DNA of 64,000 nt from Eutreptiella sp. 'Long Island Sound 2002' (taxonomy: Eukaryota; Euglenozoa; Euglenophyceae; Eutreptiales; Eutreptiaceae): NCBI GenBank assembly GCA_964036045.1, contig OZ038390.1, positions 42,532,718 to 42,596,717 of the forward strand. Direction: 5' to 3'. The notes beneath the pieces were generated by a model that ran no database searches, had not been told where the DNA came from, and saw only the letters and a program-made list of their open reading frames with translations. The first letter of the stretch is position 1, and every line of letters begins with the position of its first letter. Below, in pieces: positions 6,115 to 45,132 of this stretch. The position numbers and the translations under genes were made by a program.

Positions 6115-6226
6115 GAATAATCTTATTTGGCTCTGCCCACCTTGCAGGGTGTTCAGCAGGAGCCTATGAGTGAAGCCGGAGCGTCAGCGTTGAAGGAGTA
6201 GGTCGCCGAGCGACGAGCGGAGAGAT

Positions 6227-6796: not shown

Positions 6797-7040
6797 GTCG
6801 GCTATGTATGTTTTTGGTTTAATTTTATATTAAAATTGGGCCACCTTGTGCAAGAGCAACCTTTCTGTCACTGTACATCCACCGCTCTGACTGTTTCGGT
6901 GTCGGGTCCGTTGTATGGACCACGCCAGCTTGTTTGTTGCTTGTTTGCGTCGTCGATCGGTGGCTTATATCTTTTTTGTGTTTATTTGTTGCTTGTCAGT
7001 CAGAGGACGTTGGGTCGGATGAACCGTGAGTTCATTCCTG

Positions 7041-7049
7041 GAAGGGGGG
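7041..7049 (+). other. Polypurine tract of nested element
   Basis: GAAGGGGGG immediately precedes the right LTR start TGAAGCC on the plus strand. It matches the tract of element A. Confidence 0.85.
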
Positions 7050-7809: not shown

Positions 7810-7813
7810 TGGC

Positions 7814-10617: not shown

Positions 10618-10830
10618 GGGGCTCTCCGTGGTCGCTCCTTCCTTCTTGCCATGTCCCGTACCCAGATGTACTTCCCTTGGCAGGGCGCTTCAGGGGTTGG
10701 GAGTGGCAAAACTCAGTGGTTTTGGCTCTCCTGGAGCCTTCTTCGGCACCCGATGTGCCTTCGCTTTCTCTGGGATTCCATTGATTTTCGGAGGAGAGAC
10801 CTCCGAGGTCCCACTCCCGTGGGGGCTCCT

Positions 10831-12813: not shown

Positions 12814-13189
12814 CAGCTCTACCGCGGCCGGCTTTGCCAGGAGTCGGACCCGAGGCGAGGGGCTGTAGCTCCTCTAGCCTTTTCAGGCGTCCCGACATGT
12901 CCTCCACCAGGTGGAGGAGGCTGTCCACCACTCGCTGCTGCTTCTCCAGGGCCAGCTCCAGATTCTCCCGGTACCGGTCCCGTTCCGCTCGCAGCTCCTC
13001 CATGTCTTTCTCCGCGGCCGACTGGTCTTCCAGGATCCCTGCGACGTCCGTCTCTAGGCCGTCCTTCGCGTTGTCCAGGCTGTCGAGGCGGTGCACGATG
13101 GCGTCCATCCCCATCTTCGGGTACTTGCCCATGAGGAAGGACACGTGCTCGCAGTGGCACGCCGGGTGCCACCGCCTGATCCAGCGCAT
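12800..13189 (-). pseudogene. Coiled-coil N-terminal segment of element A gag
   Basis: The frame includes a His/Cys cluster (HPACHCEHVSFL) and then a long charged helix (EDQSAAEKDMEELRAERDRY..., DSLLHLVEDMSGRLKRLEEL), a clear coiled coil. The 12813-10831 frame continues the sense after a one-base shift near 12830 (PAAVELVERVKTLRSAMEKP), so I read this as the same protein separated by an indel. Confidence 0.6.
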
Positions 13190-18133: not shown

Positions 18134-19507
18134 CTACCTCCTCAACTCCCAAGACCATGTGTCGTCATCCCATTCACAACGATACAGGAATGTGCAGCGC
18201 TTTTTAGATCCCACTCGACGTCTAGCCACATTCTTGACAAGTCGAGGAGATTCTCCAGTTTTGACAGGGGGCATCGGAAACTCCCACACCGGCTGTCCCT
18301 CTCGATGGACGTAGGGTTTTATGCTGTCTCGATTGAAAACTCGCAACCCATCGAAGGGGGCAGGGATGTCCAGTTTGACATTCTTGCCCTTGTTCAGTAC
18401 CTCGAGTATTTTGTAAGGGCCGCACCAGACAACATCGAGTTTCCCTTTATGTCGATATTCCGGCACCAACACCCACCATCGTTCACCGATTTCAGGCACT
18501 CGAACGTGTCGGTCCATTTGCAGGACCACATGCATCTGGCGTCGACGTTCCTCGGCAAGCATTGCACGCACAGAATCGAAGGTACGTTCCGCTCGTTGCA
18601 TGTAATCATTCACGGTCGATGGTTCATGTGCATGAGAAGTCATTCGGGGAAAATGCAATGGAAAATGGGGTGTTCGTCCTTCATCTATCTCGAACGGGGA
18701 TAGTCGAAGACTATTGGATGTCAGGTTGTTGAACTGGATTTCGGCGAACAGGAGGTCGACATCCCACTCGTTGTTGCCGAAGATGCCGTGTGCACGCAGG
18801 CGCTGGAGGATGGACTGATTGCTGCGCTCCGCCAGGCCATTGCCTCGAGGGCGGTTGGCCACTGTTTGATGCATCTCAATCTTGAAGCGCTGAGCCAACT
18901 CCTTCCACGCCTGAGACTTGAACAGCTTGTCTCGGTCAGAAACAATTTGTCGAGGGCATCCTTTCAATCGAATAACCTCACGTAGGAACACATAGATAAG
19001 GTCGTCGGCTGTCATATCCTTGCGACAAGGGATGAACATTCCACGCTTGGAGAATCGGTCGACTACAGTCATGATGGCGTCATGGCCCCTTGTGGTCGGC
19101 GGCAATCCCGAAACCCAATCGATGGACACACTGTGCCATTTGGTGTCGGGCACCGGCAATGGTCTTGGCACTCTGGCGGTGTCGACTCGTCTTGATTTCG
19201 CCGCTTGACAGACATCGCAACTTAGTATGTATCGCTCGACATAGTGTCGAAGGTGTGAACATACGTAGTCGCGCTTAATCAGGGCCATGGTTCGAAGGAC
19301 TCCTGAGTGGCCATAGAACTCCGACTCGTGATACATAGCCACAATCGACGTAACCAGCGTTCGGGGAACAAGCACACGTTTGCCCATCGTCGAGAAATGG
19401 AAGAATTTGCCATCATCGAAGGACAACTTGGCATCTCGAAGCTGGTGTCGTGCCGCAGGGCTTCGAACCGCGACTTCGTAGATGTGCTGCGTCCGTGGGT
19501 CCTCTCT
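18134..19507 (-). pseudogene. Integrase of element B
   Basis: Integrase inserts the cDNA into chromatin. In the frame numbered from 19426, the zinc domain has H33, H40, C70 and C73. The catalytic core has D103 (SVSIDWVSG), D164 (VSDRDKLFKS) and E200 (GLAERSNQS), with 35 residues between the last two. The C-terminus ends in a short, truncated chromodomain-like stretch (YRCEWDDDTWSWELRR) and TAG. This frame is the same as that of RT-RNase H, separated only by TAA at 19510-19508, with coding-like sequence in between. The tail probably marks where the element is broken. Confidence 0.88.
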
Positions 19508-22104
19508 TTAGGCTGCCGCCCACACAGCTGTCGAAGTCAAGTCTTTGCACTGATAATGTCGATGTACTCGGCGGTGTGTACCCTTGAGACTCGAAGGGTA
19601 CGGCGTGTTCGACCCAACCTTCGGCAAGGGGACTGATTGCAACGTGCCGCCGCGGTGACGTCGACAGCGAATCAGTTCCGCCATGGTTGGAGCGTATCGA
19701 AGTTCATTGCCAAAGGTGACTCGAAGAGGACGATCAATGCTTACATCGGGGAGGTCGTTGGTGTCGGTAGACGTGTCTGGCTCATTGCCAGCCTCATCGA
19801 GATGCATGTCTGGTTGGTGTGAATTCTCAGCCATGATCTCGTCCGATGGTGCTGGATCCAGTCTCAGGTCCTCCGGCTCAGCAGTTGTCGTGCTCGACGG
19901 TAGCGGCTCCAGGTCCTCCGGCTCAACGGCGGGTTCGGTGTCGAATTGGAGGGCTGGTTCCGCAAGCTCATCTGCGTCAAGTTCCTTCCCCACGGAGCGT
20001 CCGCTTCGTAGTGAGACGTACAGGTGGTCGTACGGCTGGGGACACACCTCGTCATGAGAGAATGAGTCTTCGAGTACATGTAGGAACTCATCGACAGGTT
20101 CTCCTTCCGGTGAAGCCCAATCTTCGACCAGGGGAATTGCGAAAGCCCGTGTACGTGTGGCATTTTCGATATCCATCAACTGCCGCGAAGTTAGACGGGA
20201 GCAGGCGTCCGCCGCAGGGTTCTCGAGGCCCGGCACGTACCACAACGTCAGGTTGTATTCCTCGAGGAATTGGGACCATCGTGCTTGCCGTGGTGTCAGC
20301 GGTCGAGGACAGGTCTTGAGATATCGAAGACTTTCGTGGTCAGTGTGCACGTGCACCTGCTGCGGTCCTCGAAGTAGGTGAAACCATTGTTTCAAGGCTA
20401 ATACGATGGCCAATAACTCCTGTTCTTGAATCGGGTATCGAGTTTCGGCAGGCTGCATTTTCCGCAACATGAAGGCAATAGGTCGAAGATGTCCCTTGTA
20501 CTTCCCATGCGCACATCGTTGCGCCAGCGTAGCACCCACGCAGTCTTTCGAGGCGTCTGTGTACAGGTGATACGGCTGTCGGGGGTCGATAGCACTGAGA
20601 TGTGTCGCACTGATCATCGCCTGCTTCAGCTTGTCGAAGGAAGCCTGGTGGACGGCTGTCCATTCCCACTCGAAGTCTGCCTTAAACATTGCAGTCAGAG
20701 GGGCTGCAACAGCTTGGAACCCTTCGACAAACTGCTGGTAAAATCCACACAATCCAATGAACTGTCGAACTTCATGGACCGTAGTTGGTGGGGGCCAACC
20801 TCGAATGACCTTCATCTTTTCGGGGTCCATGTGTACTCCATCTTGGTCGATGACGTATCGACAGAAGGGTACTCGACTTTGAAAGAATGTGGATTTATCG
20901 ATGCAGGGAAAGAGATGGTGCTTACGGAGTAGTTCATGTACCAGGTCGAGGTGTCGTTGGTGTTCGTCCGCATCCTTCAAGAAGACGAGGATGTCGTCAA
21001 TGTACACCCATACAAAGATCCCCAAGTGGTCTCGAAGGACATCGTTCAAGACGCGTTGGAACGTCGATGGCGCATTACAGAGGCCAAAGGGCATAACAAC
21101 CCAGTCGTAGGCGCCAAATTGTGTGTTGAAGGCGGTTTTCTCGATATCTTCGTCTTGAATTCGGATCTGGTGGAACCCACTAACAAGGTCAATCTTTGAG
21201 AATACGGTGGAACCTCCCAGTGTACTCAAGATGGATTGGATCGATGGCAAGGGATATCGATCTCGTACAGTTCGTGTGTTCAACGCTCGGTAGTCGACGC
21301 ACATACGCCATTTACCATTCGCTTTCTTCACCAGTAGGCAACCCGCTCCGTATGGACTCGAGGATGGTCTGATGGGACCAGATCGATGCAACTTGTCCAA
21401 TTGTCGTCGAAGTTCATCTAGTTGGCTCGGATCCATTTTGTAAGGGTGTACCCACGGTGGATTGTCTTCCGAATAGAGGCGTATTCGATGATCTCTTCCA
21501 CGTCGATGCGGAGGTAGGTCTCCATATTCCGCTTTCTCCCGGTCGTAGAGGTCCGCCCGCTTGTGTAATCGATTCGGCAGTTTGCGTCGAACAGGGTCAA
21601 GCCCGTCATCATTGCCATCACTGGCTTGCATCTTATACATTTCATCGACCGGCACTGCTGGTCGAGGCATGCAACACAGAAATACTTGATCTCCCGTGAG
21701 ATCAGATCGACGAATCTCTCTTTTGAGTTTCGGCAACGAACTGTACTCAATCTCCATATCGCTGCACTCCTCATCGGTGATACCATCTTCCGTTTCGGAC
21801 TCATCGTACATGTCAGTACCGCGCTGAACGTGTGTCGACGAGTGTAGGTCAGGGTGTTCGTTGGCATGTGGGGCAGGATTCCCAACCGGACTCGCTTTCG
21901 AGGAACTGGATGAAAGTATCGAAAGAAGGTCCAGCTTCGAAGCCGCTTGAAACTGCAGCTGGGTGGAATGTCTTGATTCGCCAAAAGACAACCGGTACGA
22001 AATCGAACCATGTTGGATGTCGGCGTATCGCTCCTTCCAGTTGACAGTTGGATTGTAGCTTCGAAGCCATGGTAGTCCAAGCACTACATCCGGCAAAATC
22101 TCCA
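19508..22104 (-). CDS. Reverse transcriptase and RNase H of element B
   Basis: An 865-aa frame beginning in the last part of the protease fold (LEILPDVVLGLPWLRS). Then come an acidic linker, RT (MCVDYRALNTRTVRDRYPLP, SKIDLVSGFHQIRI, catalytic YIDD at residues 368-371) and RNase H (YTDASKDCVGATLAQR, VHTDHESLRYL, ENPAADACSR). A long Asp/Glu/Pro-rich linker precedes the TAA and integrase. Unlike elements A and C there is no methyltransferase-like insert before RT. It would copy element RNA to DNA and remove the RNA strand. Confidence 0.92.
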
Positions 22105-22109
22105 AGACT

Positions 22110-22180
22110 GTAAAATTGTCCTAAACGGCCAAATGTTTTTTATGTTAACCCGTGGAGCAATTCAGTTGCGTGGTTAACAA
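22110..22180. mobile_element. 71-bp TG...CA insertion with 5-bp duplication
   Basis: The segment begins TGTAAAATTGTCC and ends GTGGTTAACA. It is flanked on both sides by AAGAC (22105-22109 and 22181-22185). It interrupts the protease/RT junction: deleting 76 bp (insert plus one AAGAC) rejoins HHFKV to LEILPDVV and restores the reading frame exactly. TG...CA ends and a 5-bp duplication are the marks of a solo LTR, but 71 bp would be very small. An inverted pair, GTTAACC...GGTTAAC, lies inside. A small MITE is the alternative. Confidence 0.65.
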
Positions 22181-22185
22181 AGACC

Positions 22186-22560
22186 TTGAAGTGATGACGA
22201 AATACAAGCTCTCCAACTCGAACATAAGCTCGCGTGTAGTACCGTACTTCGACTTGGACACCTCCGGCTGTCAAGACATGTCCAGGGTTTCTCAGTTTAT
22301 AGAGGGGAAGTCGTGCCCTCTTTGCTGTTTGCATCGACATAAAGTCACTGGTCGCTCCACAGTCGACCAACAGTTCCACGCTGGAGTCAAAGGAGTCTTC
22401 ACGACATGCGCAAATGCGCCCTCGAACCGTGAACAGAGACGCATGCTCAGGTTCGGTTCCTTCGACAGTGACACTTCCAAGCGTCCAATTCTTTTCGGGT
22501 TTATTGGTGCTGGTGGTGGTGTTCAGCTCTTCTCGAGGATGTCCGCCACCAGGTCTTCAC
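22186..22560 (-). pseudogene. Protease of element B
   Basis: The frame contains VELLVDCGATSDFMS; D-C-G-A stands where D-T/S-G is usual for the catalytic aspartate motif. It is followed by VLTAGGVQVEV and a strand-rich segment typical of the retropepsin fold. Upstream the sense runs through two other frames (CEDLVADILEKS, then GSVTVEGTEPEHASLF) from the end of gag, so at least two indels separate it from gag. Downstream it is cut by the 71-bp insertion. Confidence 0.75.
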
Positions 22561-22569
22561 AATTGTTTT

Positions 22570-24183
22570 CTAGGCCGTTGTAGGCCTTTCTCTGCTCTTG
22601 GAGCGGGATCGTAACCGTCCCTTGGTGTCTCGACTTTGATCTCGTTTCGGTGTGCTCGACCGTGATTCCCGACGTTCTCGTCCTCGGGATGGCGGTCGAC
22701 CTTTTTGACAGTCACGGGCCAAGTGTCCTTGTTCGCCACAATTGTAGCAACGTCTGCTTTCTCGACCATCTTGGCGTCCGCCATGTTGACGTCCGAACCG
22801 TTCACCAATGTAGGCATGTAACTCTTCTCGAAGCTTGGCAATTGCATCGAGATTCATCGGCTCTGCCACGGTCGAAGCCGTGGGCGCCGCAGCTGGGGTT
22901 GGCATCGGGGTGACGTGTGGCGTTGGCATAGGGTTGGATGGAAACGTGGAAGTCGAAGTAGGTGGGACCATCATAGGCAGGGGTCTTGACACTGCAGGAC
23001 CCAGGGTGTGATCTGATGTCGTTCTCGATGCGTTCTGTACCTCTTCCAGTTGATACCCAGCCGCAATGTAGGCTTCCGCGATGGTCTCTACCAAGGTATC
23101 GAATCCAAATGGATTATTAGAACGCCATCTCGAACGGACTTCAACGATGTACTGCCGACGCACAGCGTCATTCGACAAACCTTCAACAAATCGAGAGCTG
23201 ACGAGGAAACCCATCTGGAGTTCACTCGTGTTGACCTTCGACTTGATAGAGCATGTACGAAATTCTCGAACGTAATCTGCATGTCGGGGAAACTCGCTCT
23301 CTTTCAAGCTCAACATTCTCGACAAATACACTGGCTCATGGGATATGCAGTCGGAACGCTGGCCTAACACACGCATGAGCTCGAACCAGTCATCTTGTAC
23401 AACTTTCGTCAGGCTATGATAGTACTCAGCGGCATCACCATCGAGGAGGAATGACATCGTTGCTGCCTGGTCGACAGGTGAGGTGATGTCCGACAAGGTG
23501 AAGGCTCGTAGTAAATCTTCTTTCCATGTTCGAAATTCTCCACATCCAGTTTTAACCGTGAACCTCTTGACCAGTTTGTTCAGGCGCTCGACGCGGCGTC
23601 CTAAAATCTCCTGCGAAGGAGCATGTTGAACTACAAACTGGGGTAGTGGTTCGAAGGTACGCCGCTGTGGGAGTGGTTGTTGTGGAGGGTGAGGTTGGTT
23701 CGAATTCGAAGAAGACGGTGGTTGCGGAAACTGTTGTTGGTGTGGTTGCGGAAACTGGATGTTGTTCGGAGGTGGTGGACTCGAAGTTCGTACAAATTCG
23801 TTGAGAAGAGCGTAACATTGCGACAATTCATGTTCTACGTGTCGAAGTTCATTTGCAGCAGCTTGCGTTGCATTTTCCGTCGAGGACTGCAAGGTATCGA
23901 TGCGCTGGCCAGTTGCTGCTGTAGCACTTGCTGCTGTTGCCTGCAATACATCGATGCGTTGTTCCAATTCAATAACTTTGGCTTGAGTATCTGCAAGCTT
24001 CTGCGAACAGCTGTGAAGATCACGAGAGAGACATGGAAACCACTCGCTTTCTCGACTAGCGATGCGCTCTGCGATGAACTTCTCTAACGAGGTCGAAAAT
24101 TCGTGATGCAAGCGTGAATCACTTCGAAACAAACTGTCTCTGATGAAATGCAGCATAGCTGCGTCGTCGAAGGGCCGCTCCAT
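22570..24183 (-). CDS. Gag of element B with zinc knuckle
   Basis: A 537-aa frame starting MERPFDDAAMLHF. The N-terminal half is helical with heptad-like stretches (ELEQRIDVLQA, NELRHVEHELSQCYALL), followed by a Pro/Gln-rich stretch. A capsid-like gag domain follows (FRTWKEDLLRAF ... FLLDGDAAEYYHSL ... ADYVREFRTCS). Near the end is a canonical CCHC knuckle, CYNCGEQGHLARDC, and an Arg/Ser-rich basic tail. It would form the particle and bind element RNA. It ends in TAG. Confidence 0.9.
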   Translation of the reverse strand: MERPFDDAAMLHFIRDSLFRSDSRLHHEFSTSLEKFIAERIASRESEWFPCLSRDLHSCSQKLADTQAKVIELEQRIDVLQATAASATAATGQRIDTLQSSTENATQAAANELRHVEHELSQCYALLNEFVRTSSPPPPNNIQFPQPHQQQFPQPPSSSNSNQPHPPQQPLPQRRTFEPLPQFVVQHAPSQEILGRRVERLNKLVKRFTVKTGCGEFRTWKEDLLRAFTLSDITSPVDQAATMSFLLDGDAAEYYHSLTKVVQDDWFELMRVLGQRSDCISHEPVYLSRMLSLKESEFPRHADYVREFRTCSIKSKVNTSELQMGFLVSSRFVEGLSNDAVRRQYIVEVRSRWRSNNPFGFDTLVETIAEAYIAAGYQLEEVQNASRTTSDHTLGPAVSRPLPMMVPPTSTSTFPSNPMPTPHVTPMPTPAAAPTASTVAEPMNLDAIAKLREELHAYIGERFGRQHGGRQDGRESRRCYNCGEQGHLARDCQKGRPPSRGRERRESRSSTPKRDQSRDTKGRLRSRSKSRERPTTA

Positions 24184-24375
24184 TGTAGATCGAAGTCCAA
24201 ATCAAGTTGACGGCGTTGCGGCGTCGAAGATTGATCTCGAAGATTGATCCTCCCCGCCACGTAGCTGGCTACCACTTGTTGTGGTTTGTTTCTTGGGAAC
24301 TCGATTGCACTCCTGTGCCTCTTTGTTTCTCAAAATCCGAAATCCAAAATCCCAATCGACAAACCTCGCAGGATC

Positions 24376-28193: not shown

Positions 28194-30638
28194 TCAATTC
28201 GGCCAAGCACGAATACATGTGACCACCAACCTGTCTGGCCTGGCCCTCGTACGGCTTGGGCGCTGCAAATCAGCGGCCGAACTTGAAGCTTGGTCCTCAT
28301 TTGGCTCCTGGGCTGGCCTGACCGCAGGAGGGGGGATCGACGGATCAGCCCTGGAATGTGGCTGCTGAGGGCCGTAAAAGGCTGGATCTCGATTCACCAC
28401 AGGTCGTTTTCCGTCGCTCTCCACTTGTCTGTCTGGTTTCGACAAACAATCTGTCAGGAGTACACCAATTTCGGGGTGCTTCTTCAGGAAGTCGATGAAC
28501 CCCTTGGTGTATCCATGGACAAAAGATTGGGCTGGTTCCCAGTTGTTGTGACTGGAATCAAAGCCCCTCCACTCACACAGAAATTCCCATTCGCCCTTGG
28601 CGTCACGTCTTGCTTCAACAATCCTCTTGAGTTCGTACTTTCCCCCTTCGATGACCCGATGGGACAAGTGTTTTGCAGTCCAAAAAAGGGGTTTAACCCG
28701 ATCCTTGGGGGAGGGGATCTCTCTCTTGAGGCGATCGCCCGAAACGTCAATTTCCCTGCTGACATCCACACGAATCCTCCACCTGTTCTCACCAAGACGC
28801 GCTGTAACAGCGAATGGCCCCTCCCACAAGGGAAGAAGCTTGTCATCTCCGTCCAGGGTGGTTTCGGATTTTCGAAGCCAAACTCGATCATCGACTTCAA
28901 AATTGTGGGGGTTCTTTCGACCTTGATTTTGAACCCAAAGCCAGTCAGCCTGATGCTTCTCGATTAATTTCGACACAGTTTTATCTGCTCGTTGGACTTC
29001 GTCCAAAAACAGCGAAGCATCTTTACAGGGGCGAGGATTATTCAACGGCATGTTCCACCCACACTTCTTTCGTCCAAAGACAATTTCATTTGGAGAAAGG
29101 CCATGATACAAAGGCTTGTTGTGGTAACGGCGAAGCAATGCGAAGAGAACTTCCATCCAATGGAAATCCTTTTCACTCGCGAGCTCCTTACGAAGCATAT
29201 TAATAATTGAGCGGCCGGCTCTTTCACCAGGCAGCGCTCGATGCGAGTGGATTTCACATCGGAGGTGGTGGATTCCAAGGCGAGCACACAATTCTCTCCA
29301 CCATTCGGAGGTGTACTCTTTACCTGAATCCGTGACCACCTCGGATGGGACGTCCCAGCCTCCCATCCAGGTCTGCGCGCACCATTTGGCGGCAGCCTTG
29401 CCAGTCATCGACTCAATGTTGCAAGGCAACACTTGAATGTAGCCGGAATGACGGCACTGAATAAGGAGCACACCATTGACTTTTTTGTTAGTCCAATGGC
29501 ACTCTTCGTCATCGAGCTCACCGAGATAGAAAAAATCACTCGTGACTCTGTTGAAGAGGCGCTCCGGAATAGGATGAGGCCTCAGATGGCCGTGCTTCTT
29601 CGCGCTGGGAGGCGTCGAGACAGCACATTGGGCGCATCCGGCGGCTACTTTCATGCAGTGAGTATATAGCCGTGAGCCAAACAACCTATGTTTAATCATC
29701 GACCACAGTCGACGGCCATGTGCGTGGGGGGACTCCCATTTATGCCACCAGTTTAACACTCGGGGGGCTAGGGCGTCTGGCACACACAATTTACCCTCCA
29801 TCCACAGCTTCCCCCCATCCAACGAGTACTCAGCAAAAATCCCATCCTTGTGAGCATCTTTGGATTGGAGATTTCCAAAGACCTCTTTAAACATGGGATC
29901 CTGCAGGTAATCGGACGTCCAGTCACGGATTATCAGGGAATCTTTAGGCAGGGGTGGAGTTTTGGCCGGATCTCGACGCTTAATGCCCTGGATCAACCGA
30001 AATCGACTTACTTGTCGGGTATAATCAAATCGTTTCACACTCCCTGAGGAGGGATCGGTGACTTTTTCCACGACTTTCAGTGTTTTGGTGCAGATCTCGT
30101 GAGCATGCGCCGGATCTGTGATGGCCGTGATGTCGTGACACGGCAATGCGTGCTGTTTAACAGCGCACTGCATGCATGCACGTCGAATGAGTTTCTTTTC
30201 CTCCTGATTCCATTCGATGATTACATGGCGGTCCTGCTCCGTACCATGGATGTTGGTACTTTGCAGCCCCTCTGAGGCGGGGTAAGCCCATCGGCTCAGA
30301 GCATCCGCTACCGTGTTGTGTTTTCCAGGCAAATACGACACATGGAGGTCAAACAGACTGAGAAATTCGTGCCATCTGGCCCGTCGACCAGCTGGGCTCG
30401 CGACAGTATCAATGTGTTCGGTGGCCCAATACTCCAGAGATCGATGATCCGTCAGGACCTCGACTCGATTGGTGCCAACCCACGATTGGTACTTTTTTAG
30501 AGCGCAAATTATGGCATACGTTTCTTGCTCACGCGGCGACCATTGCATTTGGCGTGGGGCTAGCTTCCGAGACCAAAATGCAAGAGGGTAATGATCGCCG
30601 GTGGCTTCATCAACCTGTTCAAGGACAGCTCCGATCGC
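28194..30638 (-). CDS. RNase H, integrase and chromodomain of element C
   Basis: The frame continues from RT after TAA at 30641-30639. Numbering from 30548, RNase H occupies about 1-100 (REQETYAIICALKKY, TDHRSLEYW, GKHNTVADALSRW). The integrase zinc domain is around 269-308 (His residues near 269-277, C305, C308). The triad is D338 (TSDFFYLG), D407 (VTDSGKEY) and E442 (GERAGRS), with 35 residues between the last two. A chromodomain lies at about 638-690 (EFLCEWRGFDSSHNNWEPAQSF). A Pro/Gln/Arg-rich tail follows. It processes the cDNA and directs integration to marked chromatin. No indel is seen over the whole frame. Confidence 0.93.
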   Translation of the reverse strand, partial: AIGAVLEQVDEATGDHYPLAFWSRKLAPRQMQWSPREQETYAIICALKKYQSWVGTNRVEVLTDHRSLEYWATEHIDTVASPAGRRARWHEFLSLFDLHVSYLPGKHNTVADALSRWAYPASEGLQSTNIHGTEQDRHVIIEWNQEEKKLIRRACMQCAVKQHALPCHDITAITDPAHAHEICTKTLKVVEKVTDPSSGSVKRFDYTRQVSRFRLIQGIKRRDPAKTPPLPKDSLIIRDWTSDYLQDPMFKEVFGNLQSKDAHKDGIFAEYSLDGGKLWMEGKLCVPDALAPRVLNWWHKWESPHAHGRRLWSMIKHRLFGSRLYTHCMKVAAGCAQCAVSTPPSAKKHGHLRPHPIPERLFNRVTSDFFYLGELDDEECHWTNKKVNGVLLIQCRHSGYIQVLPCNIESMTGKAAAKWCAQTWMGGWDVPSEVVTDSGKEYTSEWWRELCARLGIHHLRCEIHSHRALPGERAGRSIINMLRKELASEKDFHWMEVLFALLRRYHNKPLYHGLSPNEIVFGRKKCGWNMPLNNPRPCKDASLFLDEVQRADKTVSKLIEKHQADWLWVQNQGRKNPHNFEVDDRVWLRKSETTLDGDDKLLPLWEGPFAVTARLGENRWRIRVDVSREIDVSGDRLKREIPSPKDRVKPLFWTAKHLSHRVIEGGKYELKRIVEARRDAKGEWEFLCEWRGFDSSHNNWEPAQSFVHGYTKGFIDFLKKHPEIGVLLTDCLSKPDRQVESDGKRPVVNRDPAFYGPQQPHSRADPSIPPPAVRPAQEPNEDQASSSAADLQRPSRTRARPDRLVVTCIRAWPN

Positions 30639-33377
30639 TTACCTAGAAGCGTCGGTTCTAATGTAGAAGGGTCGGTCAAATTGGGGCACATGCAACGTGG
30701 CGACTTCGCAGAGGGCTGCCTTCAAGTGATGGAAGGCCTCCTCGCACTCGTCAGTCCACTTGACACGAACCTTTGAACCTGCCTTGCCCGCATCTCTCCC
30801 TACCTTCAATAATTCAGTGAGGGGGGCAGCAAATTTGGCATAATTCGGCACAAAAGTGTGGTAAAAATTGCAACAACCCAGGAATCCTCTCAACTCCGTG
30901 ATCGTCTCAGGGCGCTTCCACTTCTGAATAGCGACGAGCTTCCCTGGACTGGGTCGTCGGGTGCCATTCTCTAGGAGAGAACCACAAAATTCGACTGATT
31001 TTAAAAATAATTTTCCCTTCTTTGGCCCACAAACCAGCTGATTGGCGTCAAGAATGTCCAAAACTTGGTTCAGCTGCTTCTCATGTAGGGCCACCAGCTC
31101 GGCTTCGGTCAGTCCCTCCCCCTCCGTCGCGATGATTATGTCATCTATGTACACACTCACGAAGGCACGAAGCTCAGGATGGGTTGTGAACAGCACATCC
31201 TCCATCATTCTTTGAAAAAATGAGGGGGCGTTCTTCAGGCCCATGGGCATGACGGTCCATTGGACTGGGCCACATGGCGTGCACATACAGGTGAGAGGTC
31301 GGCTGTCCTTCCTCAACGGCATTTGGTGAAAGCCGCGACGGAGATCCAGCACAGAAAACAAACGACCTCTTGCCCTCTTAGCGATTTCCTCCTCAATGAG
31401 GGGCAGGGGGTGTGAATCCGCCTTGGTTTCGGCGTTGAGATTGCGAAAATCAACAACCATTCGCCAACCATCAATGGTGTTCTGGTCTGCAGGCGGTGGC
31501 TTCGGGACTGTGAAGGGTGAACAGCACCATTCGCTGGTCATACAACCCTCAAGCCAACCAAATTCCCTGAGATTCCTCTCGATGATTTTTCTGAGGATCT
31601 CATGTTTGTGTCCATGATTTTCATAAGGGCGCTGTTTTTTTGCCTTGTACCCTTCACGAAGCTCGATGAAGGCTTCACCGAACTGTCCACGGACAGGGGG
31701 ATCTTTGATCAACTTCCCTGAAAGGGTTGTGTCCTTCCGTTCCTCAAAAATCTTTTCTCTTGACTTGGAACACAATTCAGTGTCCACCTGATCGCCAGGA
31801 ATTACTGTCGAAAAAACTTTGGCGACTTCTTCGGCTTTGGCAGGAAGAATCTTCCTACGGATGTCCCTAAACAGGTCCGTATCAACTGCCTCTTGAAGAT
31901 AGGTGGGTCTTGTGTCGAAATCCCAGAGATTCTCTTCGTGATCCAGCTCCTCGAAAGGATCCATGAAAGCTTCCACAGGGGGTTTTTCATAAAAAACTCT
32001 GAATTTGCGGCGCGATTGGAGATTTTTCCTCGCCCGTGCACTGAAGATTCTTTTCGATGTCGACCGTATTGGGGAAGAGGGAGACGAGGCGGATCCATTG
32101 GACGTTGAATCACCTTGGGTATCTGACGGACAAAAATCAGAAAAAATAGATTCATCATCAGTACCACGCTCAACCTCAGATTCAGACCCAACACAGGAAT
32201 CTGTACTAGAATCAGCAGAATTAGAGTCAGAAAGCTTTCCATCCACCAGGAATGCAAGCGAACTCCAGGACCGCTGTGGCAGGGGACCTGTGTCGTCCCT
32301 GGCATACAGCTTAATCTTCCTGGGAAGTTCGATGTAATCTACACAAATGTCTTGTAATTCCTGAAACCAAGGCTTGTCGTCCCACAAGGGCACAACTAAA
32401 ATTGCCTGGGTTTTATCTTGCTTGATTTTGTGGATGACCTGCTGGATTAAGTGAAACGGAGGATTAATCCACACTTTCTTGTCCCATTTATGGGTCCAAG
32501 CGTCGCTAAAGTGCTTGTCAAAGCGCTTGTTCATACGGTTAGCAAAGGCATCATACTGTGGCCAAAAGGAATGGTGTTCATGAAAGTATTCACAAATTGC
32601 ATCGCGCCATTTGTCGACAACTCTGTAGGATGTAGAGTGCCAGCGCGAAGGGCGTCGTGGCTGGGAGTCCCTACGAAGGCATTCTAACTCTTGGGAGTAA
32701 TCGGCACTCCCATTCACCTCTGCAATGGTGACATCTTCACCAAATTTTGGTGTCACCTTTTGCTTCAAAAATTCTTCTGCACTTTTAAACCCTGCGTGCA
32801 AAAAACGAAATTCAGGACGCTCCAAGGGACCTGACTCCAGCAAAAAAAAACGACGATGACCTACGGGCGCTACCCTGTTCTTGCGAAGCCAAGGATGGCC
32901 CAAATAAAGGTCATACTTTATGTCAGCACGATAGAAGTAGTCATCCTTAAGGACAACTTCTTCCACATTTTGCTCTTCCCAAAGGTCTTGAGCGACCAAA
33001 TGAGTTGATATATAACAACCGCGTTGCCCACCTGCGAGAGAATGTCCAGAAACTCCCTCGAGGGTAACAGGATGAGGCGATTCAAACACGCAGTCGTCGG
33101 GTAAGAATGAATTGGATTGGAGATTTACCTCTGATCCATTGTCACACAAACAAGTGGCGAGGTGGAAATTTCCCTTGCAATCAGAGACCCACAGCTTTGT
33201 GACAAACTGACGGGCCCTGTGCTTGGACTGTACACCAACCTCGTCCACTACAACAGAAGGATCCGCTGCCGGATCCAGGGGAGAGGAGACAAGCGACCCT
33301 ACATCAAGTAATGGTCGATCAGGAATTCGGGGATCATGCCTGAAATCGCCTGGGGAGGGGCGATTTTCGTGGCTCCC
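30639..33377 (-). CDS. Protease, methyltransferase-like domain and RT of element C
   Basis: The open frame begins right after TAG at 33380-33378. Numbering from 33248: the protease-like part has CDNGSEVNLQ at 35-44, with D-N-G-S in place of the usual D-T-G-A/S, and DLYLGHPWLRKN closing the fold. Residues about 205-340 form a domain with YDAFANRMN, the motif INPPFHLI (NPPF at 262-265) and QAILVVPLWDDKPWF. This resembles the Dam-like N6-adenine methyltransferase domain known from DIRS retrotransposons. RT follows with RMVVDFRNLN, SVLDLRRGFHQMPL and YIDD at 700-703. RNase H starts with YIRTDASR, where TAA (30641-30639) stands for an expected Tyr- or Gln-like codon before AIGAVLEQ. Confidence 0.9.
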   Translation of the reverse strand, partial: GSHENRPSPGDFRHDPRIPDRPLLDVGSLVSSPLDPAADPSVVVDEVGVQSKHRARQFVTKLWVSDCKGNFHLATCLCDNGSEVNLQSNSFLPDDCVFESPHPVTLEGVSGHSLAGGQRGCYISTHLVAQDLWEEQNVEEVVLKDDYFYRADIKYDLYLGHPWLRKNRVAPVGHRRFFLLESGPLERPEFRFLHAGFKSAEEFLKQKVTPKFGEDVTIAEVNGSADYSQELECLRRDSQPRRPSRWHSTSYRVVDKWRDAICEYFHEHHSFWPQYDAFANRMNKRFDKHFSDAWTHKWDKKVWINPPFHLIQQVIHKIKQDKTQAILVVPLWDDKPWFQELQDICVDYIELPRKIKLYARDDTGPLPQRSWSSLAFLVDGKLSDSNSADSSTDSCVGSESEVERGTDDESIFSDFCPSDTQGDSTSNGSASSPSSPIRSTSKRIFSARARKNLQSRRKFRVFYEKPPVEAFMDPFEELDHEENLWDFDTRPTYLQEAVDTDLFRDIRRKILPAKAEEVAKVFSTVIPGDQVDTELCSKSREKIFEERKDTTLSGKLIKDPPVRGQFGEAFIELREGYKAKKQRPYENHGHKHEILRKIIERNLREFGWLEGCMTSEWCCSPFTVPKPPPADQNTIDGWRMVVDFRNLNAETKADSHPLPLIEEEIAKRARGRLFSVLDLRRGFHQMPLRKDSRPLTCMCTPCGPVQWTVMPMGLKNAPSFFQRMMEDVLFTTHPELRAFVSVYIDDIIIATEGEGLTEAELVALHEKQLNQVLDILDANQLVCGPKKGKLFLKSVEFCGSLLENGTRRPSPGKLVAIQKWKRPETITELRGFLGCCNFYHTFVPNYAKFAAPLTELLKVGRDAGKAGSKVRVKWTDECEEAFHHLKAALCEVATLHVPQFDRPFYIRTDASR

Positions 33378-38757: not shown

Positions 38758-38774
38758 GTTGTGAGAAGTAGAGA

Positions 38775-38791
38775 TGTAACTACGAAGCCAA
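38775..38791 (+). repeat. Left terminal inverted repeat of element D
   Basis: TGTAACTACGAAGCCAA, the exact reverse complement of 44262-44278. Confidence 0.9.
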
Positions 38792-39014
38792 GAGACATTC
38801 GCCAACTTGCTTCGGAATGCAGCCAAATCATGGCGGGTGTCTATTATGTTGTTACACTGGCTACCCAGGGATTTCTTCCTCCTTTTTGGTGTAAATGGAA
38901 ACTTTTTACCCTGAAAAACCCCGGGTTTCATGCCCCTCTCGTGCTGAAAACACTCCTACACGGTAAAAAACTCCCAAAGTTGGCTTCCCGGGGCTGGGCT
39001 CACGCAAATTCACA

Positions 39015-39138
39015 AGTTCGCGCGCCAACTCGCAAGTTGGCGCGCCAAGTCCGGACTTGGCGCGCGCCAAGTGTCAAGTTGGCGCGCGCCAAGTGTCAAG
39101 TTGGTGCGCGCCGAGTCCGGACTTGGCGCGCGCCAAGT
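39015..39138. repeat. Left palindrome array of element D
   Basis: Six palindromes of 16 or 18 bp, of the form A(G/C)TTGGCGCG(CG)CCAA(G/C)T, at 39015, 39035, 39055, 39077, 39099 and 39121. All are separated by exactly 4 bases (CGCA, CCGG, GTCA, GTCA, CCGG). Centre-to-centre distance is 20-22 bp, about two helical turns. The array lies beyond the end of gene B, towards the terminus. It is likely a transposase or accessory-protein binding region. Confidence 0.92.
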
Positions 39139-39373
39139 GTCCCCCCAACGATCTAACCATCGACTTGCACACTATTGTTGTCACTGGAGATTTCGTCCCT
39201 CACCTGCCCTTGCACACTTGGCACGAAGAAAGCATTGTTCCATCTTTTTTTGAGGAATGTGCAAAAGAATGTGTAAAACAATGTGCAAGAGATGTGCTTC
39301 CCGATGTAGCATACATTGTGGAGCCGTAGCTCAAAACTGGGGGCCATGGAGGCATATCAATCATACATAGAGG

Positions 39374-41198
39374 TCAGATGCCTTGTGACCCCTGTTCAGC
39401 CTGGATGAAGACCCCCTTATTCTCTACGTACCCCCTTTGCTTCGTCCACGACGACTCCCAAACAGAAAATTCTTTATTATACAACCCCCAGTCCAGATTA
39501 TCTGAGCGGATCACTTCCCCCCACCCCTTCCGCGTGCGATCCCCCTTGCCCCCCTTCACCCGCACTCTGGCCCCCCGCAGTCTGGACACCCGGCCGCCTT
39601 TACTTCCACCTCGAAAGCTGCGCTTGGAAATTTCACATTTCAGGGCTTTGTGCCGCCCCTCTCCTTTGAAGGCGGCAAAAATGGCAACGTGCCCCCACCT
39701 GCGGGCCCATCTCAACAGGTGGTCAATCCACAGATGGGCCCACAGGGTGACGTTCATTTCACAGGCCTTATGGGCCTCCCCCATTTTTTTCAATTCTGTT
39801 CACAGAATTTTCATGTCGGGCAACTGCAACGGTCCGGATTTCCAGACGACATCGCTTTTTGCCAACAGGGATTTTCCCCATTGCCGGAAGGCGTCCGTGC
39901 AGGACACCTGGACCCCCCCCATGTCAACGACACGCTGCAGGAGGCCCTCCCCCTCCAGATGGTCACACATAATGTCCCATCCCTCACTCTTCACCAACTC
40001 TGCAGCCGCCGTCTGCTCGATTTTCAGGGGCACCTTCTTCTTTTCCTTCCTCTCCTCTTCCAACGCCACACCGGTGGCGGTCCGTGCCTGGATCCGAATG
40101 GGATCCAAGAACCATTGCACCCACCTCACGGCCTTTCCCCTCTTCCACTGATGCACCGTGTGGAGGCTGTTCACGAGGGCTGAAAGCCCATTGTGCACTT
40201 GCCGGTGCACGCCATGCAGCCCATAATCGGGGGGCCGCTGGGGGGGGCGCACGATCGGGCATATCATCCCTGCCCAGAGCCACTCCTCGACAATCACCCC
40301 CATCCCGCAACAAAATTCGTGCAGAATGGTTGCCGGATTCTCCCCACACAGCCAACAAACAGTGGCTGCGGGGTTTTTGGCTGTGAACGAGGAGCAACCC
40401 CCCAAAATGACCTGCGCCTTGGTGCTTGCTATAAAGAAAGAAATCCCCTTACGCAGGTAGCCCCCTTTATCGGGGATTTGCTGCTGCGCCACCTCGGTGA
40501 GGTCCGCATTCAGGTCATAGACCTCGGCCAATTGGGTAATGATGGCCTTCTTCTCGGATCCGCGCAGCAAGATCCAAGAGCCCAAGGGCATATGACTCCC
40601 CAGGTCTGCAACGGCAAAATGCACAAAGGACGCTTGCCAGGGCTTTGTCCCGTCGAAGGAGATGCCCACCCACACGTTGTCCGTCAGGAACTTGGGGCCG
40701 TCACGGTGCCACATCACCTGTGCCAGAAAACAGGCCGTGTGTAACGGGTCACCGTGAACGGTCGCCAGGAAACGCTTTGGTGCAGGGTGAAAATACATGC
40801 AGTTACTGCCACAGATTGCATGCGGCCCCAAAAATGTCATTGTCCTCGTCCGTCTGAAAATGGACCTCCGTGACACGGGGGGCGGACAATGCCTTTCGCA
40901 CCTGCATCAGGGTTCCCCATGGGCACTTCCATTGGCTGTGGGCCCGGCTGTACTGCAGTTTGCGGAAGCTGTCGCCATTTTTGCGGCTCTCCCACAGAAT
41001 GGCCGTGGCCAGCAGCTCCAAATCAGGGGTGGGGGGTTTGCCCTCCCCGCAAACGAGGTGGATGCGGCGGCGGCCGGGTTTGACGTGTACTTGCCAATGT
41101 GGCCCAAAAATCTCCCCCACGACTTCGCGAAGGCGCGCCAGCCGCGCGCGCCTGTCGCGGTAGTTTGAGGGCGCCAGCTGCTCAAAGGCCCGCTGCAT
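39374..41198 (-). pseudogene. Probable DDE transposase, gene B of element D
   Basis: ATG at 41198-41196 (MQRAFEQLAPSNYRDRR), about 110 bp downstream of the middle array. The sense runs 41198 to about 40838, shifts one base at TTTTTGGGGCC, then continues to 39374 with a single in-frame TGA at 39802-39800; about 605 aa in total. Motifs: VWVGISFDGTKP (first Asp candidate), CWLCGENPATILHEFCC (Cys/His cluster), PPDYGLHGVHRQVHNGL (second Asp candidate, like the D-x-x-H segment of CACTA/KDZ transposases) and FAAFKGEGRHKALK (Glu candidate). The tail is Lys/Arg/Gly-rich. The family assignment is by motif pattern only. The two breaks may be mutations, base-call errors in homopolymers, or recoding. Confidence 0.6.
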
Positions 41199-41305
41199 GG
41201 TGCACAAACAAAGACCTGCGGCACGTGAGGATGTGGCAGGCGGGTCGGATCATACAACGGAAGGTTGGTGCACGTTGGCACACAGCTGGCACACAGTTGG
41301 CACGC

Positions 41306-41429
41306 AGTTGGCGCGCGCCAATTCGCGAGTTGGCGCGCCAACTTCTTATTTGGCGCGCGCCAACTTCCCTGTTGGCGCGCGCCAAATCAGGAGTTGGCGC
41401 GCCAACTTACCACTTGGCGCGCGCCAAAA
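41306..41429. repeat. Middle palindrome array of element D
   Basis: Six palindromes at 41306, 41328, 41348, 41370, 41392 and 41412, again with 4-base spacers (CGCG, TCTT, TCCC, CAGG, TACC). Just before it are three TTGGCACACAG-like half sites (41274-41305). It sits between the end of gene A and the start of gene B, so it could serve as the gene B promoter or operator. Confidence 0.92.
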
Positions 41430-41450
41430 CCATGCCAAGCCGGTGCCTGC

Positions 41451-43827
41451 TCATTTCCTCGACCGCTTGCTGCCCTGACCTTGACTCCCCTCGCCCTCTT
41501 CCGCCCGCCTGCGCTTGGGGTCAAGCAGGTGCGCAACCGGGTGCTTGTCCAGCAGGCCCTTGAGCTCCGTGAGGGTGGCCTCTTTGACCCCCATGTTGAT
41601 GGCCACATGGTGTTGGGCGCTGAGTGCAGAGTGCAACTCAACCGCCGCGGCTTGCAGGTACAGCATATGCTGCACATGGTCGGGGTCGGCACAACCCTCT
41701 GCCCCCCCCCCCCCACCCCAACTGCACGCACCTGCGCCGTGGCGGTCAGCTGCTGCTGCAACTCCACCCTCTGCTTTTCCCACCCCTTCTCCCTCCGCTC
41801 CCACAAGGCGCACTCGCCGGTGAGCGCCTCCTGCGCCGTCTTGCGGGCGGCCTCCGCCGCCTTCAGCTGCTCGCGCAGCAGCTTGTTCTCCGGTGGGGGT
41901 CAGAAACAGCCCCGCAGACAACCCCTCTTGCAAGAGGAGGACGTCCCCCATGTAGGGCACCGGGGCTTCCAACGGCTGCTCAGCCTGCGACACGAAGCAG
42001 ATTGGCTGGCAGATCGCGTCGGGAGTGAGGACATCCTCCTCTGCCGCACTCTGTGGGGAGGGGGGGCGGCATCCGCATCAGCCGGCGCGGCCGGCCTCTC
42101 CTCCGCATCCGCCGGCGCCTTCGGCATGTCCTCCTCTTGGGGATCAGGCACGGGGTCGGCCTCCTCTGACGCACTCTGTTTGGGGGGGGGCGTCATCCGC
42201 ATCAGCCGGCGCCTCGGCATCTCCTCCGCATTTGCCGGCGCGTCCGGCATGTCCTCCTCTTGGGGGGCAGGCACGGGGTCGGGGACTGCCTCGGCCTCCT
42301 CAGACCCCTCGTCGAGGGGGCTGAAGTTCAAACTGGCCTTTGTGCCCAGAGGAGACCCGACTGCAGCCCCCTCGGCCAGAAGCTCGGAGGGCATCAGCGG
42401 AACACTGTTCATCAGCTCTGTTACACTCTCCGGCTCCACGGCCAGAATGCGCGAGCGGTAGCCGACGGGTGCAAACGGGATGAACAGTGCCCGGCCAGGC
42501 CCGCCCGCACCGCGACGGATCACCGTCCCGCGGAGGAGCGTCGCGCTGCGAAGCGGTTGGATAACAATATCTCACCGATTCGCAGCGTGATAGCCCCCCT
42601 GTGTGCCCGGGCACACCTGGAGGGACTTGGACGGGCTGGAGGTGGTGAGGGGGATGAACACGACCATGCACTGCAGTGACTGTTCCACTGACATTGCAAA
42701 ATCGCGGTGGGGGATCTGGAAGCCCTTCCACGGTTCTGCCTCCCACCGCTCGATGATCTTGGGGCACAAGGCCTCAAGTCCCTCCAGCGGTGGGAGGGAG
42801 AACCCCAGCAGGGCCAGAACTGCCTGCCCGAGGTCGTCCGGGAGCCAGTGGGGGACGCTGGAGACCGTCGTCTGATAGCGCCCCCCACCTTCCCCGGGGG
42901 CCTAGAGGTCCACCTCCTCGAGCATCGACGGGTTGAGTTCCACCGTGGCGAGCTCCGCCAGTCTGGCCCACAGATCCTTGGGGATGATGCGGTCATACTG
43001 GCGGTAGCCCGCCGCGGCAAAACCCTCCTCCGTGACGATGGGGTGGTTGGGGATGTCGTGGGTGGCGACAGGGTAGGAGTTGTGGAAGGAGGGGTGGGGG
43101 CAACCTATGCCAAGCATGGTGAAGGGGGCATTGGTGCTGTAGAGGGTGGGGTGGGTGATGTCCGGGATGTGGGTGCGCAGGCGACGGTTGGTGGAGAACT
43201 CCGTGGGAGCTACTGCATCCCACGCCTGCACCTTCACCGTCTGGTACCGCACGACGGCGTCAGTGGCCGTGCGGTGCGTCCAGCCACTTTTTTTGACTGG
43301 ATCCACCCAGAGCCACTGCTCCTCGGGGATGAGACCCTTAGGCGGCTTCTCCTGCAGCTCGAGAACGTTGACGAACTCTTTTGACGCTGCAGCAATGCAC
43401 AGCTTCAGGGTCTTGTTGAGGCCCTCAAGGGTGACTTGAGAAAGCTTCAACTCGACCGCGAGCGTCGTGGGGTACCGCCCCATCACGGCACAGCAGAACG
43501 TGCTAAGAACCACCCCTGGTCAGGGCGAAGTTGATGCGGGTGGCGTGAATTCGCCAAACCAAGTAGGGATTGCCCGGCTGGTCCCACATGCCGAAGAGGG
43601 CGGCCTCCAAGGGTTCGCGGAGGGGGGGGAGCTGGGGGAAGGATTCGGCGTCCGGGGGGGGTGAGGGTGTAGGGGATGAGAAAATAGCCCGCGGGGAAGT
43701 GCTCGGAGCCGACGTTGGCGATGTGGGCGTCGAGCACCGCCTGCACCTTGGGGTTGGCGGGGGCAGATGTGGGGTCAGTGACTGTCACCTTCTTCCCCTT
43801 GCCCTTCTTGGGTTGCTTTGCAGGCAT
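41451..43827 (-). pseudogene. Gene A of element D, coiled-coil/NLS protein
   Basis: ATG at 43827-43825 (MPAKQPKKGKGKKV), 90 bp downstream of the right array. The first frame shifts at C-rich runs near 43655 and at 43515. From 43513 one frame (VLSTFCCAVMGRYPTTLAVELKL...) runs to 41900, interrupted by TAG at 42904-42902 and TGA at 42574-42572. It includes PWKGFQIPHRDFAMSVEQSL and RALFIPFAPVGYRS, then an acidic region with two DPVPxPQEEDMPxAPAxAEE-type repeats. A coiled coil follows (ENKLLREQLKAAEAARKTAQ ... WEKQRVELQQQL). The C-terminus is KRRRAEEGEGSQGQGSKRSRK in effect, a bipartite NLS, ending at 41451. About 790 aa. Family unknown; a DNA-binding partner of the transposase, like TnpA of En/Spm, is my inference. 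Confidence 0.5.
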
Positions 43828-43916
43828 AATAAAATGATGAGATGCCTAGAAGGCAAAGGGAATGCATGAAGGGTGTACATGAAACACGGGGTGCAAACAA
43901 ACAGGAAAAATGGGGC

Positions 43917-44050
43917 AGTTGGCGCGCGCCAAAACCGGACTTGGCGCGCCCAACTCAAGAGTTGGCACGCCAAATTGGCGCGCCAACTCTTGAGTTGGCG
44001 CGCCAACTTTGCAGTTGGCGCGCGCCAAGTGCCAAGTTGGCGCGCCAACT
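43917..44050. repeat. Right palindrome array of element D
   Basis: Palindromes at 43917, 43939 (one extra C), 43960 (partly overlapping the next), 43973, 43993, 44013 and 44035. Spacers are CCGG, CAAG, none, CTTG, TTGC and GCCA. After TTGA a half site follows at 44055-44061. It lies directly upstream of gene A and 211 bp inside the right terminal repeat. Confidence 0.92.
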
Positions 44051-44261
44051 TTGACTTGGCCTCCAAAAAGTTGGCTTTGACCCAAAAAACCCACATATTG
44101 CATCATAACAACAAAGCAACGCAACCAAAAGCTGTAAAATATCAATAGTTCCTCACGTTTCATGCAAAAGGCATAGCAACAACACAGTGCAAAAGTAAAT
44201 GCAAGTTGAATGCTCTCGACATGGAGTTGACCAGGAGTTGGCGAATGTACAGTATCTGGGG

Positions 44262-44278
44262 TTGGCTTCGTAGTTACA
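44262..44278 (-). repeat. Right terminal inverted repeat of element D
   Basis: Reverse complement of the left 17 bp, perfect. The outside bases are GAGTATTTTC, against AGTAGAGA outside the left end. Confidence 0.9.
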
Positions 44279-45132
44279 GAGTATTTTCTAAAAAAAAAGA
44301 GAAAAGTGTTGAAAAGCTTCGGTAACCATTCGGGAAATTCTTTTTTTTCGTCAAAACTGAGCTAAGAGCCTTTTGATGCCCTATCAAAAAAGAGGCCTGG
44401 TATGAAATTTTGAGTGTCAAAACTGGCAGTTTGAGAGCTACCAGGTCTGAAAATTTGGTGCTTAAACGGGCGAAAATGGCAAAGTGCGTAAATTTAAAGC
44501 GTATGAAATTGTTTCCCCCTCTGTAGTGAACCTTGCCTTTTGTACCCACCAAGCTGTACTGAAGCACATTAAAAAGCCTTCAAGAGGTTTCATAAACAAG
44601 TTCATGTTAAATCAAGAAATACATCAAAATTGAATGAAATAAAAACCAAAACCCGAAACTACATTTTTTGTTCTTGGTGAGCATCACAACACCACCACAA
44701 ATGGCGACATTGAAATGTGATTTAATTGGAGAAGAGAAAGAATGTGCTATCGAGGTGGCTCTACAACTTTCCAGAAGATCAACGGTATTGTGGCCGGCAC
44801 AGCTTGTGGCTTGTGGTTAGACTAAGCGAAAAGGATGAAAACCATTATGCCTTATATAACAATTTTTCTAGTTACAATAGTATGTGCCTCTGGCCCCTTG
44901 CACACATTGCCACCAAAAGAAAACAACCGTCCTTGGTTTTTCTTTGCAGTCCGCTCTACAATACTTTTGGCAATTGTTGAGTTGTTGTTTGGGAAAATTC
45001 GCATTGATTGTTTGCAAAGATTGGTTGTGGTGTGCCATGTTGTTCACATTCAAGTCATGCTTTTAGTAACTTGTCTTGATACTCAACTTTTGTGGGCAGA
45101 GCACATGGCAAATCAGAGCTGAATAAAAAACT

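Follow-up and report, generated by a model that had tools for sequence, protein, structure and literature searches.

A damaged DNA transposon with palindrome arrays and a CACTA/Transib/RAG1-type transposase signature in Eutreptiella

The window analysed here is a stretch of 64,000 nucleotides (64 kb) from Eutreptiella sp. 'Long Island Sound 2002' (assembly GCA_964036045.1, contig OZ038390.1, positions 42,532,718 to 42,596,717 of the forward strand), and window positions are counted from its first letter. The element at 38,775 to 44,278 is probably a copy, damaged and shortened by an internal deletion, of a cut-and-paste DNA transposon with three genes (A, B and C), whose arrays of palindromes would serve both the pairing of its ends and the control of its genes. 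Two observations carry this reading. The element belongs to a repeated family (family 1) of DNA transposons with recurrent ends and 2-bp target duplications, and the same plan of genes and arrays is kept in two diverged families of the same genome (families 2 and 3), in which the motifs are different. The genome (G000) comprises 2.28 Gb in 2205 contigs; numbers with L denote the stretches referred to below.

Borders, palindrome arrays and copies

The terminal inverted repeat, TGTAACTACGAAGCCAA, is 17 bp long, and both it and its exact reverse complement at the opposite end occur once in the window. Inside it lies a second inverted motif of 13 bp, ACATTCGCCAACT on the left and AGTTGGCGAATGT on the right, whose 11-bp core was placed by search. 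The arrays are composed of palindromes of 12 or 14 bp, TTGGCGCGCCAA or TTGGCGCGCGCCAA. With up to two mismatches allowed, the window element holds 19 palindromes in three arrays, the first and the last of them lying 242 and 230 bp from the respective ends. All 15 perfect palindromes of the window are inside the element; arrays lacking terminal repeats were looked for inside the window, and no perfect palindrome was found outside the element.

The spacing of the palindromes is nearly constant. Among the 218 pairs of neighbouring perfect palindromes that lie no more than 40 bp from each other in the window stretch and 20 fetched stretches, 185 are separated by exactly 8 bp, independent of the palindrome length (12 or 14 bp). 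The 33 exceptions comprise 27 gaps of 28-31 bp, as if about one unit were missing, and six odd ones. Within the window element, 12 of the 13 close gaps between its 17 GGCGCGC sites fall at the expected steps, whereas 500 first-order Markov shuffles of the element contain a mean of 0.8 such sites and at most one gap at an expected step. First-order shuffling thus fails to reproduce the observed palindrome spacing.

Copies of both ends are found throughout the genome. A left-end probe of 526 bp gave 1302 first-look candidates. The 40 that were scored, among them the place of the window itself, cover 497-526 bp of the probe, and their identity is 91-100%. A right-end probe of 449 bp gave 1224 first-look candidates, and the 40 scored have an identity of 89-100%. 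Twenty left-end copies were fetched, and six with a pairable right end, together with the window copy, give seven pairs of borders. The flanking dinucleotides are identical in all seven (GA, CA, AG, TG, CA, TT and GG), an agreement expected by chance at about 4e-9 when each is counted as 1/16, and the 20-bp flanks vary among the copies. In twelve of the 20 fetched copies no right end is present inside the stretch (L025 and L026 among them were also fetched without a left flank); L016, where the right end belongs to a neighbour, and L019, where the left end is inverted and the flanks do not match, were left out of the count, and in L013 a perfect right-end match was taken over one with four mismatches. 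We note that L028 (8072-9046) holds a short family-1 derivative with 975 bp between its ends, which has kept the terminal arrays, lost the genes and has its own 2-bp duplication, TT. Outside the genome, matches of the 17-bp repeat in two viral contigs (L001 and L002, one each) were judged to be chance, and no relative was confirmed in IMG/VR, in a search that may omit entries from the genome the window comes from.

A structurally complete copy of 7170 bp is present in L030 (501-7670), with three co-directional genes on the minus strand and four arrays, at element positions 243-360, 2470-2655, 4279-4462 and 6808-6940, which contain 6, 9, 9 and 7 palindromes, respectively (at most two mismatches). 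Gene A begins with its first Met at about 2360 and extends to 548. It is interrupted by an intron of about 79 bp with GT..AG borders, and the nearest upstream array is 110 bp away from the Met. Gene C is an open stretch of 760 amino acids from its first Met at 6737 to 4473, the last part of which is apparently out of frame relative to L027, and an array stands 71 bp upstream. Gene B appears as open stretches in several frames from 4057 to 2682, which end about 220 bp short of array 3. When the window copy is aligned to L030, about 1.7 kb (L030 element positions ~3113-4825) is absent at window position 41892. With this segment the copy has lost array 3, the greater part of gene B and the 3' end of gene C, and gene C is now fused to the remnant of gene B. 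The window copy is, in consequence, a broken deletion derivative of the three-gene element.

An earlier sequence-only reading of the window had described perfect 17-bp terminal repeats, the inner inverted 13-bp motif, three arrays of which the outer two are nearly symmetric to the ends, and a DNA transposon with subterminal arrays and TGTAAC ends, all of which is borne out by the sequence and by the genome-wide recurrence of the ends. It had named the absence of a second copy with the same two ends as an objection, which falls with the copies described above, and had proposed to read the target duplication from the borders of other copies, which give 2 bp. Its counts of two genes and three arrays, in turn, describe the deleted copy and not the element. 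Given the three genes and four arrays of L030 and the internal deletion, the 'third array between two genes' of that reading is the array before gene A, next to a gene-B remnant fused to gene C.

Searches with the gene A protein return close copies and, in addition, more distant and longer proteins. Two proteins that the same genome encodes many times over, P0105 (6849 candidates, of which 82 were scored, with 99 match rows) and P0109 (6166 candidates, of which 74 were scored, with 74 match rows), represent families 2 and 3, respectively. A family-2 copy on contig C20 starts with TGTAACTACGAAGT (L036) and ends with its complement (L048), with TA on both flanks, and a family-3 copy on contig C18 starts with TGTAACTGCTAAG (L033) and ends with its complement (L039), with AT on both flanks. 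Both families therefore have TGTAAC ends and 2-bp duplications in the one paired copy of each, which is pieced together from separate stretches that leave part of gene A uncovered. For family 2, the left array and the comparison of coding sequences come from another copy, L032, in which other sequence interrupts upstream in gene C. In five more copies of family 3, no right end turned up at the expected place. Several family-2 and family-3 copies have a transposase open reading frame free of stops.

In each of the two families, arrays stand at four positions, upstream of the genes and at the far end. Their palindrome core is CGTACG for family 3, whereas family 2 has TTTTGCG..CGCAAAA. The steps between palindromes are mostly 22 bp or multiples of it, with some of 11-12 or 33 bp. 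Among CGTACG gaps of at most 70 bp in family 3, 14 of 19 (L031) and 20 of 26 (L039) fall at multiples of 22 bp, against none in each of 500 shuffles, and so do seven of nine gaps between TTGCG(T/C) sites in family 2 (L048), again against none in shuffles.

The three genes

Gene A is, judged from its conserved residues, a DDE (Asp-Asp-Glu) transposase with the D-D-C(2)C-H(4)H-E signature of the CACTA/Transib/RAG1 (CMCT) group, the clade of CACTA, Mirage, Chapaev, Transib and their allies. In an alignment of 11 proteins (A3), whose rows are not independent since several come from one family, the first Asp is conserved in 9/9, the second Asp in 11/11, both Cys in 11/11, the first His in 11/11, the H(4)H pair in 10/10 and the Glu in 9/10 of the rows bearing a residue at that position. 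The spacing is 77 residues between the two Asp, 22 from the second Asp to the first Cys, and 20 from His to Glu. The same series of D, D, C(2)C, H, H(4)H and E is given for the CMCT group in the available text of Kojima 2025 (PMC12730594), and the corresponding residues of mouse RAG1 are D600, D708, C727/C730, H937/H942 and E962 (accessible part of PMC4914335). A distant transposase in the L027 and L031 stretches aligns to A3 over 461 columns at 22% identity with the motifs in register (hhalign E 4.9e-13), and an unrelated control profile, A3 versus A5, gives E 0.4. The splice in gene A of family 1 is supported by relatives that have a single uninterrupted frame of about 580-610 amino acids.

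The protein of gene B has a basic tail in L030 and looks coiled-coil-like in all three families. Homology between families 1 and 2 is clear (32%, E 8e-10), and the family-2 protein includes an AT-hook-like stretch that is not significant against the Pfam AT_hook model (E 9).

Gene C is homologous between the families, with 33% identity over 290-295 columns between families 1 and 3 (E 1e-29 to 7e-31) and E 2e-9 between families 1 and 2. Families 1 and 2 have in common the motifs G(F/Y)Q.PH.DF ... SLQ..PGT ... IH.G.GGPG(R/K), which can be read by eye as the HxD..H..R pattern, and gene C may encode a putative 2-oxoglutarate (2OG)-Fe(II) dioxygenase.

In family 3, an additional open reading frame that by eye resembles TET/JBP (HKHQD ... 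ALHMPAPWRGERYALVFF) lies beside gene B (L039:362-991 and L031:6027-6656, both on the minus strand), and in both copies read it is in frame with gene B across one stop codon. Neither this frame nor the other element proteins scanned match Pfam Tet_JBP. A genome search with Tet_JBP, in which nine candidates were scored, gave a sole match over the cut-off at G000:C2034:19243-19665, which could be a host gene or a contaminant; control genomes gave no match.

Features of the window copy and neighbouring elements

The features of the window copy are collected in the table.

Table. Positions of the element's features in the 64-kb window
Feature	Positions	Strand	Remark
Left target site duplication copy, 2 bp, GA	38773..38774	.	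same flanking dinucleotide at right end
Left terminal inverted repeat, 17 bp	38775..38791	+	starts TGTAAC
Left inner inverted 13-bp motif	38795..38807	+	includes palindrome half-site CGCCAA
Array 1 (left subterminal)	39017..39136	.	6 palindromes TTGGCGCG(CG)CCAA, at most 2 mismatches, gaps 8 bp
Gene A remains (predicted DDE transposase)	39374..41207	-	separate open reading frames 40803-41207, 39800-40876, 39374-39793
Array 2, upstream of gene A	41308..41427	.	6 palindromes
Gene B 3' remnant	41451..41892	-	coiled-coil-like by eye, basic C-terminus
Internal deletion junction	41892..41893	.	alignment to L030
Gene C 5' part with frame breaks	41893..43827	-	putative 2OG-Fe(II) dioxygenase-like
Array 4 of complete element (third in window), right subterminal, upstream of gene C	43919..44048	.	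7 palindromes, at most 2 mismatches
Right inner inverted 13-bp motif	44236..44248	-	
Right terminal inverted repeat, 17 bp	44262..44278	-	
Right target site duplication copy, 2 bp, GA	44279..44280	.	

The distant transposase mentioned above (L031:8095-9846 and L027:7649-8899, both on the minus strand) is a second one of CMCT type, with an open frame of 584 amino acids in L031 and the motif series DAT..GDGK..CWLC..H(4)H..EYRH. In L031 it is flanked by another set of palindromes (GTTATCGCGCGATAAC), and the two are apparently a further palindrome-array transposon beside the first. Elsewhere in the window, positions 28197-33377 (minus strand) hold a Gypsy-type long terminal repeat retrotransposon with matches to reverse transcriptase, RNase H, chromo and integrase (the last below the cut-off), together with a weak Dam methyltransferase-like stretch (E 0.0011, below the cut-off). 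Two more Gypsy-like retrotransposon regions, at 3319-12873 and 18137-24201 (both minus strand), were recognized by eye from translations. Rfam at its gathering threshold gives no match in the window.

Known relatives, rival explanations and proposed mechanism

Like the CACTA/En-Spm elements, the element has subterminal arrays at both ends, an additional protein beside the transposase, and a DDE enzyme with C(2)C and H(4)H. It differs from them by its TGTAAC ends, by duplications of 2 bp and not 3 bp, and by palindromic sites that also precede internal genes; the TnpA and TnpD proteins of En-Spm, moreover, are splice forms of one gene, whereas the genes are separate here. The description of the element as related to CACTA but distinct, made from the window sequence alone, agrees with this combination of a CACTA-group signature with other ends and another duplication size. 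Transib and RAG1 are alike in D, D, C(2)C, H(4)H and E. The duplications of Transib are 5 bp long; here they are 2 bp, accessory genes are present, and no match is found by sequence search. The fungal transposons that reportedly bear TET/JBP genes (Iyer 2014) offer a parallel in that a DNA transposon may carry a dioxygenase-like gene, whereas gene C resembles a general 2OG dioxygenase and Pfam Tet_JBP is unmatched.

Several diagnostic features have been laid out for these groups in the available text of Kojima 2025 (PMC12730594). The CMCT transposases have D-D-E with C(2)C and H(3-4)H between the second D and E, a pattern that gene A shows by motif, and duplications of 2 to 5 bp, a range that includes the 2 bp found in 7/7 copies of family 1, 1/1 of family 2 and 1/1 of family 3. 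The 5'-CA..TG-3' ends, present 'in most cases', are replaced here by TGT..ACA, and PlavakaA, which is inside the clade, makes the same exception. The 5'-CAC.. ends and 3-bp duplications given there for En/Spm, and the 7- or 8-bp duplications of the Kyakuja-Dileera-Zisupton (KDZ) group, differ from the TGTAAC ends and the 2-bp duplications seen here. EnSpm elements with several accessory genes have been described in red algae (accessible part of PMC12477816), and the spacing of 20 residues from His to Glu is common to gene A and RAG1 (accessible part of PMC4914335).

PlavakaA is close in form, since it has 5'-TGT..ACA-3' ends, 2-bp duplications, and C(2)C and H(3-4)H between the second D and E (PMC12730594, available text). 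The element might accordingly be a plain Plavaka, perhaps a non-fungal one, with ordinary accessory genes, which we regard as possible but doubtful. The C(2)C and H(4)H signature of gene A would fit, as would the Plavaka transposase that stands beside gene clusters outside fungi, in Amoebidium (accessible part of PMC11244446). Yet the Pfam Plavaka model (PF18759) matches none of the 11 A3 proteins at E up to 10 and no place in the source genome, the latter a weak null because the control genomes gave no match either, and neither palindrome arrays nor the three-gene set are mentioned in the available text of Kojima 2025. Our searches of open-licence papers turned up no account of a plan with three genes and four arrays; on subterminal, palindromic or 22-bp transposon repeats, none of the papers listed resembled this layout, as judged by title and the start of the abstract. 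The idea that the family is undescribed thus holds in part: its ends and duplication size are already known from PlavakaA, its protein is unrecognized as Plavaka, and the three-gene plan with four helically spaced palindrome arrays is the part without a counterpart in the papers searched.

Two other explanations have to be weighed. A chance feature or assembly artefact, i.e., a GC-rich repeat region without a mobile element, could be suspected from the broken state of the window copy and the homopolymer runs in its genes, but the same borders recur in copies whose flanks differ and which have 2-bp duplications, and several family-2 and family-3 copies have stop-free transposase frames, all of which makes it exceedingly improbable. 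It is also conceivable, although we consider it unlikely, that the arrays are binding sites of a host factor (or nucleosome-excluding, insulator-like DNA) borrowed for promoters, and that the transposase pairs the ends via the terminal repeats alone. In the copies read from each of the three families, the arrays stand upstream of genes, which speaks for this explanation, and their binding by an element protein is something we infer. Against it, each family has its own palindrome in the same genome (TTGGCGCG(CG)CCAA, the CGTACG core, and TTTTGCG..CGCAAAA), a pattern expected from coevolution with a family-specific protein and not from a single host factor, and the 13-bp motif beside the terminal repeat of the window copy repeats a palindrome half-site.

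For the transposon with arrays of dual function, which we favour, a mechanism can be proposed. Gene A, as a presumed member of the CACTA/Plavaka/Transib/RAG1 group of DDE recombinases, would cut at TGT..ACA and insert the element with a 2-bp stagger. Palindromic sites imply a dimeric binder, and a fixed gap of 8 bp or step of 22 bp would align successive sites along the same helical face, with about two turns for each site, which favours cooperative binding; the binder may be an element protein, most likely that of gene B. As the arrays lie both upstream of genes and in the two subterminal regions, the same binder would act on transcription and on the ends. Its binding at the subterminal arrays would bring the ends together for gene A, and its binding at the arrays before genes would make the expression of all three genes depend on how much binding protein is present, a model that we liken to En/Spm, where TnpA regulates the promoter. 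Gene C, probably a 2OG-Fe(II) dioxygenase, might modify DNA or protein such that the CpG-rich arrays stay accessible, which is the weakest step.

A number of observations weigh against this reading. No Pfam model (Pfam has one for CACTA, PF02992) convincingly matches gene A, B or C or any of the 11 A3 proteins; a PDB sequence search gives no credible relative of the element proteins, and five proteins have no credible match in NCBIfam. The RNase H fold of gene A is deduced from its motifs, and the RAG1 spacings of 108 residues between the two Asp and 19 from the second Asp to the first Cys (accessible part of PMC4914335) differ from the 77 and 22 of gene A. Gene B is a putative candidate and perhaps the palindrome-binding protein; its coiled coil is a judgement by eye, and its family-3 version has a weak link to family 1, which lies in the coiled-coil region and was obtained with low-complexity filtering disabled (best E 5e-5); all other comparisons with family 1 or family 2 give E 1e-4 to 0.3. 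In gene C, Lys replaces the Arg in one of two family-2 copies, and in family 3 the His is present and the Asp absent at the first ligand site. No Pfam or PDB match of gene C to dioxygenases was found, and the best, weak matches of the family-3 protein are to the 53BP1 Tudor domain (Pfam E 0.028; PDB E 0.2). Finally, CpG decay among nine aligned family-1 copies exceeds other C/G transitions at most about 3-fold (12/292 versus 16/1171 in the window copy), with no excess in L012, L018 and L020, so that heavy methylation of family-1 copies is unsupported.

A more far-reaching version can be put forward tentatively, as a conjecture that we think rather improbable in its entirety: the element would represent a separate CMCT lineage in which the family-specific arrays, with their helical spacing, are at once a scaffold of the transpososome and the shared operator of a three-gene circuit, and in which gene C (in family 3 also the TET-like frame) is a dioxygenase whose action on the CpG-rich arrays counters silencing. 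If gene C is indeed a DNA-modifying dioxygenase, it would be an independent example of a transposon-borne anti-silencing enzyme. In three families of one genome, the plan stays constant, with an array upstream of each gene and at the far end and about two helical turns per site, while the sequence of the palindrome has changed. The series would be a natural record of coevolution between a DNA-binding protein and its site, and may serve as a test case for how subterminal arrays of the CACTA type unite end pairing and gene control.

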